A stretch of DNA of 64,000 nt from Hydrogenophaga borbori (GTDB lineage Bacteria; Pseudomonadota; Gammaproteobacteria; Burkholderiales; Burkholderiaceae_C): contig NZ_QVLS01000002.1 of the NCBI RefSeq assembly GCF_003417535.1, forward strand, positions 310,001 to 374,000, given 5' to 3'. The stretch's first letter is position 1. Each line of letters starts with the position of its first letter. Below, piece by piece: positions 13,611 to 31,238 of this stretch. The notes below the pieces were generated by a model that saw only the letters and a program-made list of their open reading frames with translations, was not told the DNA's origin and searched no databases. Both the position numbers and the translations under genes were made by a program.

Positions 13611-14153
13611 TCAATCGGCGGGCAGGCGCAGCGTCCAGCCCGCGGGGTCGTGGAAATCGGGTAGGGGTCGGGGGTGGTGCAAGGCCCAGTGCGAGACCTG
13701 GCCGCGCTGGTCTTCGATCACGGTGCTCAGGCCCAGCTGCCAGGGCCCGGGCGGCAGTTGCCGGCGATCGAGCACGGCGACGAGTTCGACGCTCTCGGCC
13801 GTCTCGCGCCGCTCGATCAGGGGCGCGTTCGGCGGTCCCCTCAGCGCATCGCGCACGCGCGTGCGGCTGAAGGCGTAGTCGGCCCACTGTCCCGAGGGGG
13901 AGAAGTTGAACTCGCGGTAGGCGCCCTGGCCGGGCTGGCCGATGAAGGCCTCGAAGCAGGTGTGGCGCCACAGGCCGTCGGCCATGCCCCCGCCCTGAGG
14001 TTCGGGCCAGCGCACCGCGGCGGTGTCGCCGCGCACGCGGTAGTGCAGCACCAGTTCGCGCGGCTCGGCGCTCACCAGCACCGAGACCGACAGTTCGATG
14101 CGCGGCGATGCGGGGTGGGGGCTGAGGTGGAGGGCGGCGGACACGGGCGCCAT
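13611..14153 (-). CDS. DOMON-like domain protein of unknown function
   Basis: 180 residues from the ATG at 14153. The pattern is mostly beta: IELSVSVLVSAEPRELVLHYRV, then CFEAFIG, YREFNFSPSGQWADYAF, and RPLPDFHDPAGW at the end. This resembles the cytoplasmic DOMON-like (carbohydrate/heme-binding fold) family found in proteobacteria. There is no signal peptide. It lies 11 bases upstream of the NamZ-like gene on the same strand, so the two probably form an operon, which would fit a sugar-ligand role. Function unknown. Confidence 0.7.
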   Translation of the reverse strand: MAPVSAALHLSPHPASPRIELSVSVLVSAEPRELVLHYRVRGDTAAVRWPEPQGGGMADGLWRHTCFEAFIGQPGQGAYREFNFSPSGQWADYAFSRTRVRDALRGPPNAPLIERRETAESVELVAVLDRRQLPPGPWQLGLSTVIEDQRGQVSHWALHHPRPLPDFHDPAGWTLRLPAD

Positions 14154-14176
14154 TGTGTCAGCCCGCGCCCCGCACC

Positions 14177-14194
14177 GAGTCACGGAACGGTCAT
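14177..14194 (+). promoter_or_regulatory. Candidate Pho box upstream of the OlsB-like / ppk1 gene run
   Basis: GAGTCACGGAACGGTCAT holds two GTCA cores exactly 11 bases apart (14179 and 14190), the spacing of PhoB half-sites; a third GTCA at 14157 is in register at two further turns. The outer bases match the CTGTCAT consensus only partly and no clear -10 follows. It lies 47 bases before the acyltransferase start. Confidence 0.4.
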
Positions 14195-14240
14195 TGGTCT
14201 GCCATGGGTGCGCCACGCAAGCGGCGCAGCATGAAAGGCC

Positions 14241-15023
14241 ATGGACAAGACCTTGATCTCCGCGGCGCCGGCGCCGCCCATGGCCCCGCCCGCGCCCGAA
14301 CGCGCCAGCGGCCTGCAGGTGCGCTGGGCGCGCCACCTCGACGACGTGCGCGCGGCGCAGCGCCTGCGCTTCGAGGTCTTCGCGGGCGAGATGGGTGCAC
14401 GGCTGTCCACGCCGCTGCCCGGCCACGACATCGACCTCTTCGACGACTTCTGCGAGCACCTGCTGGTGTGCGACGCCGCGACCGGCGCGGTGGTCGGCAC
14501 CTACCGTGTGCTCACGCCCGTGCAGGCGCGCCGCGTGGGCAGCACCTACAGCGACACCGAGTTCGACCTCACCCGCCTGCGCCAGGTGCGAGAGCGCATG
14601 GTGGAGCTGGGCCGCAGCTGCGTGCACCCGGCGCATCGCCAGGGCGGCGTGATCCTGGCGCTGTGGGGCGCGCTGGGCGACTTCATGCAGCGCAATGCGC
14701 TGGACGTGATGATCGGCTGCGCCAGCATCCCCATGCAGCACGACGGCCGCCTGGCCGCCAGCCTCTGGCGCCAGGTGCGCGAGCGCCACCTGGCGCCCAT
14801 CGACTGGCACGTTCGCCCGCGCCTGCCGTTGCCCGTCGACCGGCTGGACGATTCGCTCGAGGTGGAGCCGCCGGCCCTCATCAAGGGCTACCTGCGGCTG
14901 GGCGCCAAGGTACTGGGGCCGCCGGCCTGGGACCCGGACTTCAACACCGCCGACCTGCCCATGCTGATGCGCTTGGGCGATCTGCCCGCTCGCTACCGCA
15001 AACACCTGTTGGGGAACGCCTGA
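14241..15023 (+). CDS. OlsB-like GNAT N-acyltransferase
   Basis: 260 residues of the Acetyltransf_5 (OlsB/autoinducer-synthase-like) family: RLRFEVFAGEMGA near residue 43, the acidic DIDLFDDFCEHLLV, then GTYRVL and VELGRSCVHPAHRQGGV. Known members acylate ornithine with 3-hydroxy-acyl-ACP, the first step of phosphorus-free ornithine lipid synthesis. No OlsA-like acyltransferase is adjacent, so the product is uncertain. It is the first gene of a tightly packed run (TGATG overlap with the next gene) that leads into ppk1. A candidate Pho box lies upstream. Confidence 0.75.
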   Translation: MDKTLISAAPAPPMAPPAPERASGLQVRWARHLDDVRAAQRLRFEVFAGEMGARLSTPLPGHDIDLFDDFCEHLLVCDAATGAVVGTYRVLTPVQARRVGSTYSDTEFDLTRLRQVRERMVELGRSCVHPAHRQGGVILALWGALGDFMQRNALDVMIGCASIPMQHDGRLAASLWRQVRERHLAPIDWHVRPRLPLPVDRLDDSLEVEPPALIKGYLRLGAKVLGPPAWDPDFNTADLPMLMRLGDLPARYRKHLLGNA

Positions 15024-15946
15024 TGCGATCCGCTTTTGATGCACTGGGTGGCTGGGCGGCGCGTTCGCGCCTGCCGGCTGCGGCCGGTGGTGTCCTGCCC
15101 ATCGACCTGGGGGCCGACGACGACGGCGACGACACCCCCGACGGCCCGGAGCGCGCCCGCTACCGGGCCGTTTTCATCTCCGACCTGCACCTGGGCACAG
15201 CCGGCTGCCAGGCGCGCCAGCTGCTGGAATTCCTCAAGCGGCACCCGAGCGACACCCTGTACCTGGTCGGCGACATCATCGACGGCTGGCAACTGCGCCG
15301 CAAATGGTTCTGGCCGCAGTCGCACAACGACGTGGTGCAGAAGCTGCTGCGCCGCGCCCGCAAGGGCTGCCGCGTGGTCTTCGTGCCCGGCAACCACGAC
15401 GAGTTCGCGCGCCAGTTCGACGGCCACCAGTTCGGTGGCATCGAGGTCAGCAACGAGGCCGTGCACCTCACGGCCGACGGTCGCCGCCTGTGGGTGGTGC
15501 ATGGCGACCACTTCGACGGCGTCATCCAGTGCGCGAAGTGGCTGGCCTACCTGGGGGACAACGCCTACGAGCTGCTGTTGCGCCTGAACCGCCACCTCAA
15601 TTCGCTGCGGGCGCGCCTGGGCCTGCCGTACTGGTCGCTCTCCCAGTACCTCAAGCACAAGGTCAAGAAGGCCCTGAACTACGTGATGGACTTCGAGCGC
15701 GCCGTGGCGGCCGAGGCCCGCTCGCGCGGCTACCACGGCGTGGTCTGCGGCCACATCCACCGGCCCGAGATGCGCAGCATCGACGGCACGCTGTACTGCA
15801 ACGACGGCGACTGGGTGGAAAGTCTGTCGGCCCTGGTGGAGCACCTGGACGGCCGGCTGGAGTTGGTGCACTGGGCGCCGGGCGCCTTGCCCGAGGGCAT
15901 CGCGCATGGTGAAAATGCGCGCGGCCAAACCATAATCGGCGCATGA
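15023..15946 (+). CDS. LpxH-like metallophosphoesterase (UDP-2,3-diacylglucosamine diphosphatase family)
   Basis: 307 residues. The dinuclear-metal phosphoesterase motifs occur in order: FISDLHLG (near 50), LVGDIIDGW, FVPGNHDE, VVHGDHFD and CGHIHRPE. The spacing fits the COG2908/LpxH family rather than generic phosphatases. LpxH makes lipid X in lipid A synthesis, but this protein is longer than the ~240-residue E. coli enzyme owing to a ~45-residue N-terminal extension and an insert, so another lipid phosphate substrate is possible. It overlaps both neighbours by an ATG/TGA. Confidence 0.8.
   Translation: MRSAFDALGGWAARSRLPAAAGGVLPIDLGADDDGDDTPDGPERARYRAVFISDLHLGTAGCQARQLLEFLKRHPSDTLYLVGDIIDGWQLRRKWFWPQSHNDVVQKLLRRARKGCRVVFVPGNHDEFARQFDGHQFGGIEVSNEAVHLTADGRRLWVVHGDHFDGVIQCAKWLAYLGDNAYELLLRLNRHLNSLRARLGLPYWSLSQYLKHKVKKALNYVMDFERAVAAEARSRGYHGVVCGHIHRPEMRSIDGTLYCNDGDWVESLSALVEHLDGRLELVHWAPGALPEGIAHGENARGQTIIGA
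15931..15936 (+). promoter_or_regulatory. Candidate -10 hexamer for ppk1, leaderless geometry
   Basis: CATAAT, then CGGCGC, then the ATG of ppk1. It lies inside the 3' end of the phosphatase gene. It would allow ppk1 to be transcribed separately, with the transcript starting about at the A of the start codon. Confidence 0.4.
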
Positions 15947-18021
15947 TCGGCTCTGCCTCCATTCCGCGCTTTTCCCTCCTCGATCGCGACCACAGCATCC
16001 TCGCGTTCAACGAACGCGTCATGGACTGGGCGCGCCGCCCCGACGTGCCCGAACTGGAGCGCCTGCGCTACCTCAGCATCGTCTCCAGCAACCTGGACGA
16101 ATTCTTCGAGGTGCGCATGGCGCCGCAGCTGGCGGCGGCCAAGGCCCACGAGACGCGCGGCCTCTACACCGCCCAGACCTTCGAGGCCCTGTCGGCCAAG
16201 GTGCACGAGTTGGTGGCCCAGCAGTACGCCATCTACAACGACGAGCTGCTGCCCGCGCTCGAGAAGAAAGGCATCAAGATCGTCGCCCACAGCGAGCGCA
16301 ACGCGCGCCAGCGCCGCCACGTGCGCGAGATCTTCCACAACGAGGTGCAGCCCCTGCTGATGCCCGTGGGCCTGGACCCGGCGCACCCGTTTCCGCAGGT
16401 GGCGAACAAGTCGCTCAACTTCATCGTGCGCCTCACGGGCAAAGACGCCTTCGGGCGCGAAAACGAGATCGCCATCGTCAAGGTGCCGCGCATCCTGCCG
16501 CGCTTCTTCCGCCTGCCGTCGGTGAAGGGCTCGCGGCAGATCCACTTCGTCTCCATCTCCAGCCTGATCCGCACGCACCTGGGCGACCTGTTCCCCGGTC
16601 GCCAGGTGACCGAGTTTTCGCAGTTCCGCGTCACGCGCCACTCCGACCTGGCGGTGGACGAGGAAGAGGTGAAGAACCTGCGCACCGCGCTGCGCAAGGG
16701 CCTGCAGCAGCGCCACTACGGCCAGGCGCTGCGGCTGGAGGTGTCGGCCGGCGCCTCCACCTTCCTGTCCGACTTCCTGCTGGAGCAGTTCGGCCTGCCC
16801 GAGGCCTGCCTGTACCGCGTGCCCGGCCCGGTGAACCTGGTGCGCCTGAACCAGCTCATCGACAAGGTCGACGCACCCGAGCTGCGCTTCGAGCCCTACC
16901 TGCCCGGCTGGCCGCTGCAGCTCACGCCGGGCCAGTCCTTCTTCGAGCGGCTGCGCCAGGGCGACGTGCTCATCCACCAGCCTTACGAGAGTTTCGACGC
17001 GGTGCTGTCCTTTCTGCGCGAGGCGGTGGAAGACCCCGATGTGCTGGCGATCAAGCAGACCATCTACCGCACGGGCGCCAAGAGCGAGCTCATGGACCTG
17101 TTGCGCGAGGCGGTGCGCCGCGGCAAGGAAGTGACGGCGGTGGTGGAGCTCAAGGCCCGCTTCGACGAGGAAGCCAACATCAACTACGCCGAGCGCCTGG
17201 AGTCCGTGGGCGCGCAGGTGGTGTACGGCGTGGTCGGCCTCAAGACGCATGCCAAGATGCTGCTGATCACGCGCCGCGAGGCCGAGGGCCTGCGCCGCTA
17301 CGCACACCTGTCCACCGGCAACTACAACCCCGGCACCGCGCGCGTCTACACCGACCTGAGCACCCTCACGGCCGACGAGGCGCTCACCGCCGACGTGGAC
17401 CAGGTCTTCCTGCACCTGGCCAGCCAGAACCGCCTCGCCCGGCTCAACAAGGCGCTGATCGCGCCCTTCCTGCTGCACAAGGCCATGCTCGACAAGGTGG
17501 CCGCCGCGGGCGAGGCGGCGGCGCGCGGGCAGGACGCGCGCATCACACTGAAGATGAACGCCCTCACCGACGAACCGCTGGCGCGCGCGCTGGCTTCGGC
17601 CTCGCAGCAGGGCGTGAAGATTGACCTCATCGTGCGCGGCGCCTGCGTGCTGCCGGCCGGCGTGCCGGGTTTCACCGACAACGTGCGCGTGCGCTCGGTC
17701 ATCGGCCGCCTGCTGGAGCATTCGCGCGTGTACCACTTCCGCGTGGGTGGCGAGGAAGAGGTCTGGCTGGCCAGCGCCGACTGGATGAACCGCAACATGC
17801 TGCGCCGCGTGGAGCTGGCCTGGCCGGTGACCGATCCGGCCTTGCGCCAGCGCATCGTGGACGAATGCCTCAACGCGTATCTGCACGACACGCGCGATGC
17901 CTGGCTGCTGCAGCCGGACGGCCGCTATGTGCCGGCCGGGCAGGGCGCCTCGGGGCGCCAGCGTCACCACTTGCAGTCGGCCCAGGCCAGCCTGATGGCC
18001 CGGCATGGCGGGAAAGGCTGA
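15943..18021 (+). CDS. ppk1: Polyphosphate kinase 1
   Basis: 692 residues, the standard PPK1 length. It reversibly polymerises the gamma phosphate of ATP into inorganic polyphosphate. The four-domain layout is present: an N-terminal helical domain (FNERVMDWA, SNLDEFFEVR), the head domain (QPLLMPVGLDPAHPFP), and two PLD-like catalytic domains. The phosphorylated histidine is H436 in GLKTHAKM, and STGNYNPGTARVYTD follows. The ATG overlaps the stop of the phosphatase gene, and sixA follows 4 bases after the stop. Confidence 0.97.
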   Translation: MIGSASIPRFSLLDRDHSILAFNERVMDWARRPDVPELERLRYLSIVSSNLDEFFEVRMAPQLAAAKAHETRGLYTAQTFEALSAKVHELVAQQYAIYNDELLPALEKKGIKIVAHSERNARQRRHVREIFHNEVQPLLMPVGLDPAHPFPQVANKSLNFIVRLTGKDAFGRENEIAIVKVPRILPRFFRLPSVKGSRQIHFVSISSLIRTHLGDLFPGRQVTEFSQFRVTRHSDLAVDEEEVKNLRTALRKGLQQRHYGQALRLEVSAGASTFLSDFLLEQFGLPEACLYRVPGPVNLVRLNQLIDKVDAPELRFEPYLPGWPLQLTPGQSFFERLRQGDVLIHQPYESFDAVLSFLREAVEDPDVLAIKQTIYRTGAKSELMDLLREAVRRGKEVTAVVELKARFDEEANINYAERLESVGAQVVYGVVGLKTHAKMLLITRREAEGLRRYAHLSTGNYNPGTARVYTDLSTLTADEALTADVDQVFLHLASQNRLARLNKALIAPFLLHKAMLDKVAAAGEAAARGQDARITLKMNALTDEPLARALASASQQGVKIDLIVRGACVLPAGVPGFTDNVRVRSVIGRLLEHSRVYHFRVGGEEEVWLASADWMNRNMLRRVELAWPVTDPALRQRIVDECLNAYLHDTRDAWLLQPDGRYVPAGQGASGRQRHHLQSAQASLMARHGGKG

Positions 18022-18025
18022 AGGC

Positions 18026-18529
18026 ATGGCCATGGCGGTGCGCGGCATGGACCTGATCCTGTGGCGCCACGCCGAAGCGCAGGACCACCCCGACGCGGCC
18101 GAAGGCCTGCCGGGCGACCGCCTCGACCTGGCGCGCCGGCTCACGCCGCGCGGCGAGAAGCAGGCCGCGCGGATGGCGGCCTGGCTGGACCGCCAGCTGC
18201 CGGAGGGCGCGCGGGTCTGGAGCAGCCCGGCCGCTCGCTGCGAGCAGACGGTGATGGCGCTGGGCCGGCGCTACAAGCTGAGCGAGGCGATCGCACCCGA
18301 GGCCAGCGCCGAGGCCCTGCTGGACCTGGTGCAGTGGCCGGCGGGAAGAAGCCCCGTGCTGGTGGTGGGCCACCAGCCCACCCTGGGCCAGGTGGTCGCG
18401 CGCCTGCTGGGCTTCACCGAGGACGATTGCTCGGTGAAAAAAGGCGCGTTGTGGTGGCTGCGCCACCGCGAGCGCGCCGGCGTGGGCGAGACCGTGGTCG
18501 TGACGGTGCAGACGCCCGAAATGCTGTGA
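18026..18529 (+). CDS. sixA: SixA-type phosphohistidine phosphatase
   Basis: 167 residues from the ATG at 18026; starts at 18005, 18032 and 18047 are also in frame, and GGAAAGG at 18010-18016 favours 18026. This is a histidine phosphatase (phosphoglycerate-mutase fold): LWRHAEA with the catalytic His near residue 15, WSSPAARCEQT, and VVGHQPTLGQV. SixA enzymes remove phosphate from phosphohistidine in proteins such as ArcB or NPr. Here it follows ppk1, whose own intermediate is a phosphohistidine; a functional link is possible but unproven. Confidence 0.85.
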   Translation: MAMAVRGMDLILWRHAEAQDHPDAAEGLPGDRLDLARRLTPRGEKQAARMAAWLDRQLPEGARVWSSPAARCEQTVMALGRRYKLSEAIAPEASAEALLDLVQWPAGRSPVLVVGHQPTLGQVVARLLGFTEDDCSVKKGALWWLRHRERAGVGETVVVTVQTPEML

Positions 18530-18536
18530 CGCCGGC

Positions 18537-18998
18537 TCAGGCGGCCTTGGCGGGCGCCTTGCGGGGGGAGGCCTTCCTGGCGGGGGCCGGCTTCGCCGCA
18601 GCTTTGGCCGTGGGCTTCGCGGCGGTTTTGGCCGGCGCCTTGGGCGCGGCCCTGGCGGCGGGTTGTGTGGCGGGTCGGGTGGCCTTCTTGGCGGCTGGCT
18701 GCTTCGCCGCGGTCTTCTGCTTCGACGGGGCCGGCGGGGCGGCGGGCGCTTCGGCGGCCGGCCGGCCGGTCTTGAGCGTGGGCACGGCGGCCACGGCGGC
18801 CTTGTAGGCGGCGTCGCTCAGGCCTTGCAGCACCATCAGTCCGGCGCGCAGCAACTCGCTCTTCTTGACACTGATGCCCAGGGCGATGGCGCGGGTCTTG
18901 AGCGTTTCGATCGCGGCGAACTCGTTCTTCGGGATGGTGAAGCTGTCGCGAACGAGCTTGGGCTTCTTGCTGGTGGACTTGTCGGTGGCAGGCGCCAT
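18537..18998 (-). CDS. Ribbon-helix-helix-like protein with histone-H1-like Ala/Lys/Pro tail
   Basis: 153 residues. The N terminus (about 15-75) looks like a ribbon-helix-helix unit: the strand VRDSFTIP, helix EFAAIETLKTRAIALG, turn, helix KKSELLRAGLMVL. Residues ~85-153 are low-complexity Ala/Lys/Pro repeats (KTAAKQPAAKKA and similar), like bacterial H1-type proteins such as Pseudomonas AlgP. It sits between sixA (converging, 7 bases apart) and ppx. AGGAG precedes the ATG, and a perfect inverted repeat fills its promoter. Probably DNA- or polyanion-binding. Its link to polyphosphate is inferred from gene position. Confidence 0.7.
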   Translation of the reverse strand: MAPATDKSTSKKPKLVRDSFTIPKNEFAAIETLKTRAIALGISVKKSELLRAGLMVLQGLSDAAYKAAVAAVPTLKTGRPAAEAPAAPPAPSKQKTAAKQPAAKKATRPATQPAARAAPKAPAKTAAKPTAKAAAKPAPARKASPRKAPAKAA

Positions 18999-20679: not shown

Positions 20680-20697
20680 ATGTCACGCAGTTGTCAC
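20680..20697 (+). promoter_or_regulatory. Pho box of the pst-pho operon
   Basis: ATGTCACGCAGTTGTCAC: two TGTCAC half-sites with GTCA cores 11 bases apart (20682, 20693), close to the consensus CTGTCAT-N4-CTGTCAC. CATAAA at 20706-20711 can serve as the -10, as in PhoB-activated promoters lacking a -35. The rest of the 196-base ppx/pstS gap shows no gene. Confidence 0.8.
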
Positions 20698-24703: not shown

Positions 24704-25405
24704 ATGAGCGACAAACACCTGTCCAGCCAGTTCGACGCCGAGCTGAACTCCATCTCCACCCACGTGCTCGAGATGGGCGGCCTGGTCGAATCCCAGCTTC
24801 ACCAGGCGGTCTACGCCCTGGGCAACATGAGCCTGGAGTCCGCCCTCCAGGTGGAAGAGAACGAGAACCGCATCAACCAGATGGAGCTCTCGATCGACCA
24901 CGAGATCATCTCCACGATCGGACGCCGCCAACCCACGGCGCGTGACCTTCGCTTTCTGATGGCGATCTCGCGCACCACGCAGAACCTGGAGCGCGCGGGC
25001 GATGAGGTGGCGCGCATGGCGCGCATGGTCAAATCGATCATCGGCAACGGCACGCCGCGCAACCTGCCGATCTCCGAGCTGCGCCTGGCGGCCGATCTGG
25101 CTGCCGCGCTGCTGCGCAAGTCGCTCGACTCCTTCGCGCGCCTGGACACGCAGATGGCGGTGTCCATCATCAAGGCCGACGACCAGATCGACGAGGAGTA
25201 CAACGGCTTCCTGCGCAAGCTCATCACCTACATGATGGAAGATCCGCGCACCATCTCGCCGAGCCTGGACCTGCTGTTCCTGGCCAAGTCCATCGAACGC
25301 ATCGGCGACCACGCGAAGAACATCGCCGAGCAAATCATTTTCATCGTCAAGGGCGAAGACGTCCGTCACACGCCCGTCGACAAAGTGGAGTCCGTTGCCG
25401 GATGA
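24704..25405 (+). CDS. phoU: Phosphate signalling regulator PhoU
   Basis: 233 residues made of two PhoU three-helix repeats. The metal-binding E/D-rich motifs are visible (RAGDEVARMA near 98 and RIGDHAKNIAE near 203). PhoU links the Pst transporter state to PhoR and dampens the Pho response when phosphate is plentiful. The stop overlaps the phoB start (ATGA). Confidence 0.96.
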   Translation: MSDKHLSSQFDAELNSISTHVLEMGGLVESQLHQAVYALGNMSLESALQVEENENRINQMELSIDHEIISTIGRRQPTARDLRFLMAISRTTQNLERAGDEVARMARMVKSIIGNGTPRNLPISELRLAADLAAALLRKSLDSFARLDTQMAVSIIKADDQIDEEYNGFLRKLITYMMEDPRTISPSLDLLFLAKSIERIGDHAKNIAEQIIFIVKGEDVRHTPVDKVESVAG

Positions 25406-26133
25406 GAAAGCTGCCCCGGATCCTGGTCGTCGAGGACGAACCCTCGATTGCCGAACTGATCGCCGTCAACCTGCGCCACAACGGCTTCGCGCCCACCATC
25501 GTGTTCGATGGCGCGGCCGCACAGCGCGAGGTGGACGCGGTGTTGCCCGACGTGATCCTGCTCGATTGGATGCTGCCCGGCGAAAGCGGGGCGGTGTTGG
25601 CGCGCCAGTGGCGCAAGAGCGAACGCACCAAGAGCGTGCCCATCCTCATGCTCACCGCGCGCAGCGACGAGAGCGACAAGGTGCAGGGCCTGGACGCCGG
25701 TGCCGATGACTACATCACCAAACCGTTCTCCACGCAGGAGCTGCTCGCGCGCATCCGCGCGGTGCTGCGCCGCCGCGCGCCCGAGATCGTCAACGACTCG
25801 GTGCAGGTGGGCGAGCTCACACTCGACGCGGCCACCTACCGCGTGAGCTTTCGCGGGCGTGAACTCAAGGTGGGGCCCACCGAGTTCAAGCTGCTGCACT
25901 ACCTCATGAAGCACGCGGAGCGCGTGCACACCCGTGGTACGCTGCTCGACAAGGTCTGGGGAGACCATGTCTTCATCGAGGAGCGCACCGTGGACGTTCA
26001 CGTCAAGCGATTGAGAGAGTCCCTGGGTGAGGCCTCGACCATGGTCGAGACGGTGCGCGGCGCGGGTTACCGCCTCACCGCCATGGGCAGCCCCGCACGC
26101 CAGACGCCCGGCACGCCGCTCTCGGCGACATGA
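25402..26133 (+). CDS. phoB: Phosphate regulon response regulator PhoB
   Basis: 243 residues: a receiver domain (phospho-acceptor D55 in ILLDWMLPG, acidic pair EDE near 11-13, switch Thr in MLTARSD, Lys in TKPFS) and an OmpR-type winged helix (ELKVGPTEFKLLHYLM, HVKRLRESLG, VRGAGYRL). Phosphorylated PhoB binds Pho boxes such as 20680-20697. It is translationally coupled to phoU. The C terminus extends about 12 residues past the usual end. Confidence 0.96.
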   Translation: MRKLPRILVVEDEPSIAELIAVNLRHNGFAPTIVFDGAAAQREVDAVLPDVILLDWMLPGESGAVLARQWRKSERTKSVPILMLTARSDESDKVQGLDAGADDYITKPFSTQELLARIRAVLRRRAPEIVNDSVQVGELTLDAATYRVSFRGRELKVGPTEFKLLHYLMKHAERVHTRGTLLDKVWGDHVFIEERTVDVHVKRLRESLGEASTMVETVRGAGYRLTAMGSPARQTPGTPLSAT

Positions 26134-29780: not shown

Positions 29781-31043
29781 TTAGCCTCCTCGGCGCATCA
29801 TGTCGAAGAACTCGGAGTTGTTCTTCGTCGCCTTCATGCTCTTGAGGACCATTTCCATGGCCTCGATCTCGTCCATGTTGTACATGAACTGGCGCAGGAT
29901 CCGGGTCTTCTGCAGGATCTCGGGCTGCAACAGCAGCTCTTCGCGGCGGGTGCCGCTGCGGTTGAGCTGGATGGAAGGGAAGACGCGCTTTTCGTACAGG
30001 CGGCGGTCCAGGTGGATCTCGCAGTTGCCGGTGCCCTTGAACTCCTCGAAGATCACCTCGTCCATGCGCGAGCCGGTATCAACCAGGGCGGTGGCGATGA
30101 TGGTCAGCGAGCCGCCTTCCTCCACCTTGCGCGCCGCGCCGAAGAATCGCTTGGGCCGCTGCAGGGCGTTGGCGTCCACGCCGCCGGTGAGCACCTTGCC
30201 CGAGGAGGGCAGCACGTTGTTGTAGGCGCGGGCCAGGCGGGTGATCGAGTCGAGCATGATCACCACGTCTTTCTTGAGCTCGACCAAGCGCTTGGCGCGT
30301 TCGATCACCATCTCGGCCACGTGCACGTGGCGGGCGGCCGGTTCGTCGAAGGTGGAGGCGATGACCTCGCCGCGCACGGTGCGCTGCATCTCGGTCACTT
30401 CCTCGGGGCGCTCGTCCACCAGCAGGACCATGAGCTCCACGTCGGGGTGGTTGGCGGTGATGGCGTGGCAGATGTGCTGCATCATCACCGTCTTGCCGCT
30501 CTTGGGCGGGGCGACGATCAGCGCGCGCTGGCCGCGGCCGATGGGCGCGATGATGTCGATGATGCGACCGGTGATGTTCTCTTCGCTCTTGATGTCGCGT
30601 TCCAGGCGCATCTGCTCCTTGGGGAACAGCGGCGTCAGGTTCTCGAACATGATCTTGTGCTTGTTCTCCTCGGGAGCCAGGCCGTTGATCTTGTCGAGCT
30701 TGTTGAGGGCGAAGTAGCGTTCGCCGTCCTTGGGGATGCGGACCTCGCCCTCGATCATGTCGCCGGTGTGCAGGTTGAAGCGGCGGATCTGGCTGGGCGA
30801 GATGTAGATGTCGTCGGTGCTGGCCGTGTAGCTGGTGTCCGGCGCGCGCAGGAAGCCGAAGCCATCGGGCAGGACCTCGAGCACGCCGTCGGCGAAGATC
30901 TGTTCGCCGGCTTTCGCTCGCTTCTTGATGATGGCGAACATCAGCTCCTGCTTGCGCATGCGGCCGGTGTTTTCGATTTCGAGCGCTTCGGCCTGCTTGA
31001 CCACTTCGGAAACGTGCAGGGCCTTGAGTTCGTTCAGGTGCAT
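29781..31043 (-). CDS. rho: Transcription termination factor Rho
   Basis: 420 residues, normal length. N-terminal helix-extended domain ([19 protein letters not shown]), the cold-shock-like RNA-binding domain ([27 protein letters not shown]), then the RecA-type ATPase with Walker A PPKSGKT near residue 180, Walker [17 protein letters not shown], and the Q/R loops ([19 protein letters not shown]). The hexameric RNA helicase ends transcripts without hairpins. It lies downstream of trxA, the usual order, with a 206-base leader between. Confidence 0.98.
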
Positions 31044-31195
31044 AGCCGTCACTCCAGGGCGGAGGCGATAGGGGGATGAGCGGGGAGGTGGGCGCTGCGG
31101 TCCGGATGACGGACGTTGCGCTGGGGGAAAGCGGCGGGCTTGCTGCCCGCGTTGCGGCGGATTATGACAGGAATCGCTGCGTGTGCGCCCTGTCG

Positions 31196-31238
31196 CCGAG
31201 CCCGCGCGCGGCTCGGGGCCCGGGCGGGTGCCCGGGCC
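31196..31238 (-). other. Two strong hairpins in the trxA-rho gap
   Basis: GGCCCGGGC/GCCCGGGCC (31217-31238, 4-base loop) and CCGAGCC/GGCTCGG (31196-31216, 7-base loop), both perfect. They follow trxA and precede rho, with no T-run. They could be a transcript-end structure for trxA or part of a rho leader that controls rho expression; the rest of the 31044-31249 gap shows nothing else. Confidence 0.5.

Follow-up and report, generated by a model that had tools for sequence, protein, structure and literature searches.

On the basis of a 64,000-nucleotide stretch of the Hydrogenophaga borbori genome (contig NZ_QVLS01000002.1, positions 310,001 to 374,000; the genome comprises 4.58 Mb in 37 contigs), hereafter the window, we describe a run of four plus-strand genes: an olsB-like gene, a plcP-type gene, ppk1 and a sixA-like gene. 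The run is probably an operon for phospholipid renovation under PhoB control, to which polyphosphate metabolism has been fused. Ahead of olsB lies a predicted PhoB-binding array of four half-sites with an 11-base step, which recurs before olsB in related genomes. A sequence-only reading of this DNA had proposed the four genes and their junctions, and both are confirmed here.

A lipid-gene run continued by ppk1 and sixA

The genes of the run are tightly packed. The olsB stop and the start of the plcP-type gene overlap as TGATG, the plcP-type gene and ppk1 overlap as ATGA, and 4 bases separate ppk1 from the sixA-like start at 18026, which has a second in-frame start at 18005. These overlaps suggest that one transcript may run through ppk1 and sixA.

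We compared gene order in a titled set of plcP loci, the best 80 of a larger number, several of whose titles denote uncultured bins. plcP is followed by the glycosyltransferase gene agt in 44 loci and directly preceded by olsB in 30, with a match overlap of at most 50 bases (32 with an overlap of up to 80). The complete olsB-plcP-agt-ppk order was found in 13 loci, including Acidovorax (L093, L095, L102), Limnohabitans (five by title) and Polaromonas (L139); Curvibacter L111 has the complete order too and falls outside the 13 through the 50-base limit. Loci of Burkholderia, Paraburkholderia, Caballeronia and Cupriavidus carry plcP-agt without olsB or ppk in the flanks examined, and two Undibacterium loci have olsB-plcP and sixA-ppk facing each other, pst lying further on. 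Among the matches listed, the best titled matches of the window plcP are from Burkholderiales, including Acidovorax, Hydrogenophaga and Limnohabitans. We also noticed a locus titled as a Klebsiella pneumoniae metagenome-assembled genome (L137) with plcP-agt of the Burkholderiales type, whose bin name is probably wrong.

At the genus and family level, a family-4 glycosyltransferase (PF13439, PF00534) stands before ppk in 14 of 20 loci, in 13 of them directly after plcP; the P. aeruginosa Agt1 orthologue and the in-run enzyme of L053 share 52% identity. In four cases, the window, L047, L048 and L049, plcP continues straight into ppk. The glycosyltransferase is missing from L062, which has plcP, and L061 has neither plcP nor ppk in the stretch examined. 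Two further arrangements were seen: in L063, which is without plcP and glycosyltransferase, olsB alone precedes ppk, and in L059 the glycosyltransferase is kept and plcP is gone.

The lipid genes alone might be PhoB targets, with ppk1-sixA transcribed mainly from a phosphate-independent promoter of its own as part of an old pst-ppx-ppk synteny. ppk is found near ppx and pst even where plcP is missing (e.g. L063, L076), and the gap between the glycosyltransferase and the ppk match in 14 relatives spans −4 to 99 bases, several gaps being promoter-sized. In P. putida BIRD-1, Ppk is little changed (1.34 and 0.89) and, in the passages available from that source, is listed with proteins not regulated by PhoBR (PMC5082522). 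In the window, L047 and L048, however, a 4-base overlap joins plcP to ppk, and a separate ppk promoter would have to sit inside plcP. We regard such a division of the run as unlikely and prefer a PhoB-dependent transcript that would continue into ppk1 and sixA.

The predicted PhoB array before olsB

The half-sites of the array begin at 14179 (GTCA), 14190 (GTCA), 14201 (GCCA) and 14212 (GCCA). The first lies 62 bases upstream of the olsB start, and the array ends 18 bases before the start codon. The 64 kb hold a single run of four [GT][CT]CA cores at spacing 11, that at 14179, against 0.033 expected, and no such run occurs at spacings 7–10 and 12–16. With spacings 9–13 tried, 14179 is the sole site in the window with 14 of 16 GTCA letters. 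The exact pair GTCA-N7-GTCA, on the other hand, occurs twice on both strands of the window, at 14179 and at 20682 before pstS, and 1.3 occurrences are expected from Markov-1 simulations; GTCA pairs at spacings 9 and 12 number 5 and 6. Because of this expectation, and because pairs are commoner at those spacings, the GTCA pair on its own carries little weight.

The sequence-only reading had placed GTCA cores at 14157, 14179 and 14190 in one 11-base register. All three cores are present and the pair at 14179 and 14190 stands; the register in fact continues downstream, to 14201 and 14212. The core at 14157 lies 22 bases from the array in two of three close relatives and 34 bases in the third (L012), and this loss of register probably rules it out as a further upstream half-site.

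Conservation was examined in 31 genomes: G024 and, from 97 matching genomes among 118 searched, the 30 whose olsB loci match best, that of the window among them. An array was scored at 13 or more of 16 GTCA letters at spacing 11, no more than 330 bases upstream of the olsB match. It is found in 29 of the 31 genomes, or 28 of 30 when the window is excluded; L013 and L030 reach 12 of 16 letters, below the threshold. At spacings 7–10 and 12–15 none of the 31 genomes has an array, at spacing 16 one does, and simulations give 0.025 of 31. The 31 genomes are related and are not independent events, and the spacing controls carry equal relatedness. Loss of the register in close relatives had been named beforehand as a refuting outcome, and the register is kept.

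In the titled set, the array was sought ahead of the lead gene of each cluster, leaving aside L167 and L152, whose upstream sequence is too short. Its place shifts with the gene that comes first: it precedes 35 of 47 clusters headed by plcP and 14 of 31 headed by olsB. On this measure the stretch upstream of P. aeruginosa plcP reaches 14 of 16. As controls, none of 44 agt genes and none of 26 sixA genes is preceded by an array. Before ppk it is rare (2 of 26 loci), in support of a shared transcript.

Several observations weigh against PhoB control of the whole run. Seventeen genomes, that of the window among them, have the GTCA-N7-GTCA pair upstream of pstS (34 half-sites), and by a pstS-trained matrix the window array ranks 54th of 43,478 positions with two half-sites, 7th of 43,456 with three and 4th of 43,434 with four. 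With this poor score and two half-sites that read GCCA, the strength of the array in the window is uncertain. We found no convincing −10 element. Of the 31 olsB-led clusters among the titled loci, only 14 attain 13 of 16 letters, the Limnohabitans-type loci having TTAA or GACT at inner sites. The array does occur before ppk in the two loci above and before ppx in 4 of 16, where the upstream stretch can coincide with the pstS intergenic region, and only 1 of 13 pstS promoters reaches the threshold. The four-site measure therefore misses ordinary two-site boxes; the pstS-box matrix, conversely, was too strict as a detector of olsB arrays. To these points are added the P. putida Ppk values and the lack of such an array in the 1.3 kb upstream of the candidate olsA gene described below. 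Two products of the run also fall below curated cut-offs: the olsB-like product has two OlsB models as its best NCBIfam matches (161.9 and 146.3 bits against cut-offs of 350 and 320), and the sixA-like product scores 60.4 bits against 74.5 for TIGR00249, so that we call them OlsB-like and SixA-like only.

The low matrix score and the expected 1.3 exact pairs would fit a register that arose by chance, or a site for another regulator of the OmpR type. Neither sits well with conservation that is specific to the 11-base spacing in 28 of 30 relatives, or with arrays at the head of the cluster in other genera, and we consider both quite improbable. Conservation of the 11-base register supports PhoB control of the run, as the sequence-only reading had suggested.

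Features of the window around the olsB-plcP-ppk1-sixA run
Feature	Position	Strand	Remarks
Predicted PhoB-binding array, four 11-base half-sites GTCACGGAACG GTCATTGGTCT GCCATGGGTGC GCCACGCAAGC	14179-14222	+	Unique run in 64 kb; kept in relatives
Third GTCA	14157-14160	+	Probably outside the array; 3 bases away from the divergent gene's start codon (14153)
olsB-like ornithine N-acyltransferase, 260 aa	14241-15023	+	PF13444 3e-34; two OlsB NCBIfam models best
plcP-type metallophosphoesterase, 307 aa	15023-15946	+	Predicted intracellular phospholipase C
ppk1, polyphosphate kinase, 692 aa	15943-18021	+	TIGR03705 852 bits, passing the cut-off of 465.85; four PP_kinase domains
sixA-like phosphohistidine phosphatase	18026-18529	+	TIGR00249 1.8e-16; PF00300
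Reference Pho box before pstS, GTCA-N7-GTCA	20682-20696	+	Only other exact pair in the window
phoB, regulator expected on the array	25402-26133	+	TIGR02154 318.4 bits, cut-off 296.2

Downstream of the sixA-like gene, two minus-strand genes encode a basic protein and Ppx. Beyond ppx, the plus strand carries pstS, pstC, pstA, pstB, phoU and phoB, a phosphate neighbourhood in which pstC, pstA, pstB and phoU were named by reading, without a family search. The basic protein (18537-18998) is rich in lysine, alanine and proline, is matched at this place in many relatives and gave no Pfam or NCBIfam match. The divergent minus-strand gene upstream of the array (13611-14153, 180 aa) has no Pfam match, and the stretch ATTGTGTCA at its start recurs unchanged in three relatives.

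The second gene and its lipid partners

The second gene had been read as an LpxH-like lipid phosphatase. The lipid theme is borne out, but this enzyme was wrongly named: by sequence and gene context the second gene is a PlcP-type phospholipase C. Over 238 aa its product shares 55% identity with the P. aeruginosa PlcP orthologue; with the LpxH-like protein of its own genome it shares 29% over 129 aa. The P. aeruginosa reference is a fragment on the plasmid record NZ_CP137508.1, and its PlcP identity comes from gene order: the plcP homologue overlaps a downstream glycosyltransferase gene by 4 bases, and an adenylate/guanylate cyclase gene comes next on the opposite strand; cyaB is PA3217. The published passages place PA3219 (PlcP) in an operon with the glycosyltransferase PA3218 and give 46–47% identity between PA3219 and PlcP of S. 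meliloti and Phaeobacter (PMC8528852).

LpxH models match the second gene weakly (45 and 54 bits; TIGR01854 45.3 bits, below its cut-off of 190.35), its solved-structure relatives at E ≤ 0.001 are four LpxH proteins, and public plasmid records label the family UDP-2,3-diacylglucosamine diphosphatase. Within the genome, however, the LpxH model gives another gene 175.3 bits (also below the 190.35 cut-off) and the second gene 45.9. On this better match and the identity to the PlcP orthologue we reject LpxH; given also the olsB neighbour, agt as a neighbour in relatives, and the array, it is scarcely credible that the run is a general envelope operon built around a lipid A enzyme and unrelated to phosphate.

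No agt was detected in the window genome at E ≤ 1e-60, and none lies directly downstream of plcP. It does carry an unlinked family-4 glycosyltransferase (L173, G000:C23:37812-39041, minus strand), which is 31–38% identical to the four agt products compared and whose type is present in 12 of 120 plcP or olsB loci. A four-step GTCA array at spacing 11 starts 79 bases upstream of this gene. Such an array precedes the gene in all 7 genomes with the most similar copy, the window's included, and in none of the next 5. Of 71 carriers of the type, 52 were tested: the array is present in 8 of 20 without agt and in 1 of 32 with agt. These genomes are related, and the correlation between array and agt absence is loose. 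Three of the 8 array-bearing, agt-free genomes (G046, G055 and G020; 88, 82 and 59% complete) have no detected plcP, and a shorter GTCA-GGCA-GTCA form occurs before the gene in agt-bearing genomes (e.g. L191, L193). Simple complementarity between the two types was rejected: the second type is present in 71 of 118 genomes and agt, at E ≤ 1e-60, in 55, many having both. The C23 enzyme as a stand-in for the missing in-operon agt is thus only a lead.

Synthesis of ornithine lipid would require an OlsA partner for the OlsB-like enzyme. In 12 of 20 order-level loci, the olsB homologue has an OlsA-like gene on its own strand within 800 bp. Among the titled loci with olsB, it adjoins olsB in 2 of 36; in L092 and L096 the olsA-like gene precedes olsB. 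The window genome has an OlsA candidate on contig C35 (L040, around 30884-31228; PF01553), 31–44% identical to eight order-level OlsA-like proteins that adjoin olsB homologues. It stands directly behind a gene of the amidohydrolase family (dihydroorotase-like by reading), and the start of its unit lies outside the available sequence, of which the 1.3 kb upstream was examined. Since the candidate has no upstream array there, ornithine lipid would have to be induced through OlsB.

Relation to known systems and proposed role

Pho control is known both for PlcP-Agt and for OlsB; their junction to ppk1-sixA is little described. In the passages available from each source, Pho boxes before plcP clusters and the roles of the enzymes are published (PMC4796936, PMC8528852, PMC9239053), P. 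aeruginosa plcP is a Pho-box gene (PMC8528852), and agt directly after plcP is common, in more than 25% of isolates, and non-defining (PMC4796936). As far as these passages go, the PlcP-Agt renovation systems of Phaeobacter MED193, SAR11 and P. aeruginosa (PA3219-PA3218) resemble the window in having a plcP-type gene whose unit carries a Pho-type array. The window run differs in being led by olsB, in ending in ppk1-sixA and in lacking agt.

An olsB homologue with a predicted Pho box is likewise shared with Burkholderia sensu lato, and ornithine lipid at low phosphate is mentioned for P. xenovorans as 'data not shown'; the passages seen deal with olsB alone (PMC7814305). The three Burkholderia loci that we examined (L168-L170) have plcP-agt and no olsB in the flanks covered, about 1 kb upstream in two of them. 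The enzymes OlsA, OlsB and PlcP are shared with P. putida BIRD-1, where, in the passages available, they require PhoBR; by locus tag they are encoded apart there (olsA-olsB PPUBIRD1_0974-0975, plcP PPUBIRD1_1390), and Ppk appears not to be PhoBR-regulated (PMC5082522). A search of titles and abstract openings in the open-licence literature found no paper on the union of olsB-plcP with ppk1-sixA.

We propose that, at low phosphate, phosphorylated PhoB would bind the array at 14179-14222 and induce a transcript through olsB, plcP, ppk1 and sixA. PlcP may remove the phosphate-bearing head group of membrane phospholipids, leaving diacylglycerol, which a glycosyltransferase would convert into glycolipid. 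OlsB would form lyso-ornithine lipid, to be completed to ornithine lipid by the separately encoded OlsA. Ppk1 from the shared transcript could store as polyphosphate the phosphate that is set free or freshly taken up. For the in-operon agt that the window genome lacks, the unlinked family-4 glycosyltransferase, which has a spacing-11 array of its own, may substitute. The fullest form of this scheme is tentative and, taken whole, rather doubtful: one PhoB transcript would couple stripping by PlcP, formation of phosphorus-free aminolipid by OlsB, banking by Ppk1 and tuning of a phosphorelay by SixA, and a lineage that lost the in-operon agt would have recruited an unlinked family-4 glycosyltransferase under PhoB.

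Our findings point to a real and conserved lipid-renovation operon joined to polyphosphate genes, probably under PhoB control. With a PlcP as the second gene product, phosphate would be recovered from phospholipids in a direct step and, if this reading is true, PlcP is the better name for a family annotated as UDP-2,3-diacylglucosamine diphosphatase. Acidovorax, Limnohabitans and Polaromonas are common in fresh water and soil. If the proposed coupling is true, recovery of membrane phosphate would be hard-wired to polyphosphate synthesis in a group that includes these genera, and the coupling would bear on phosphorus cycling.

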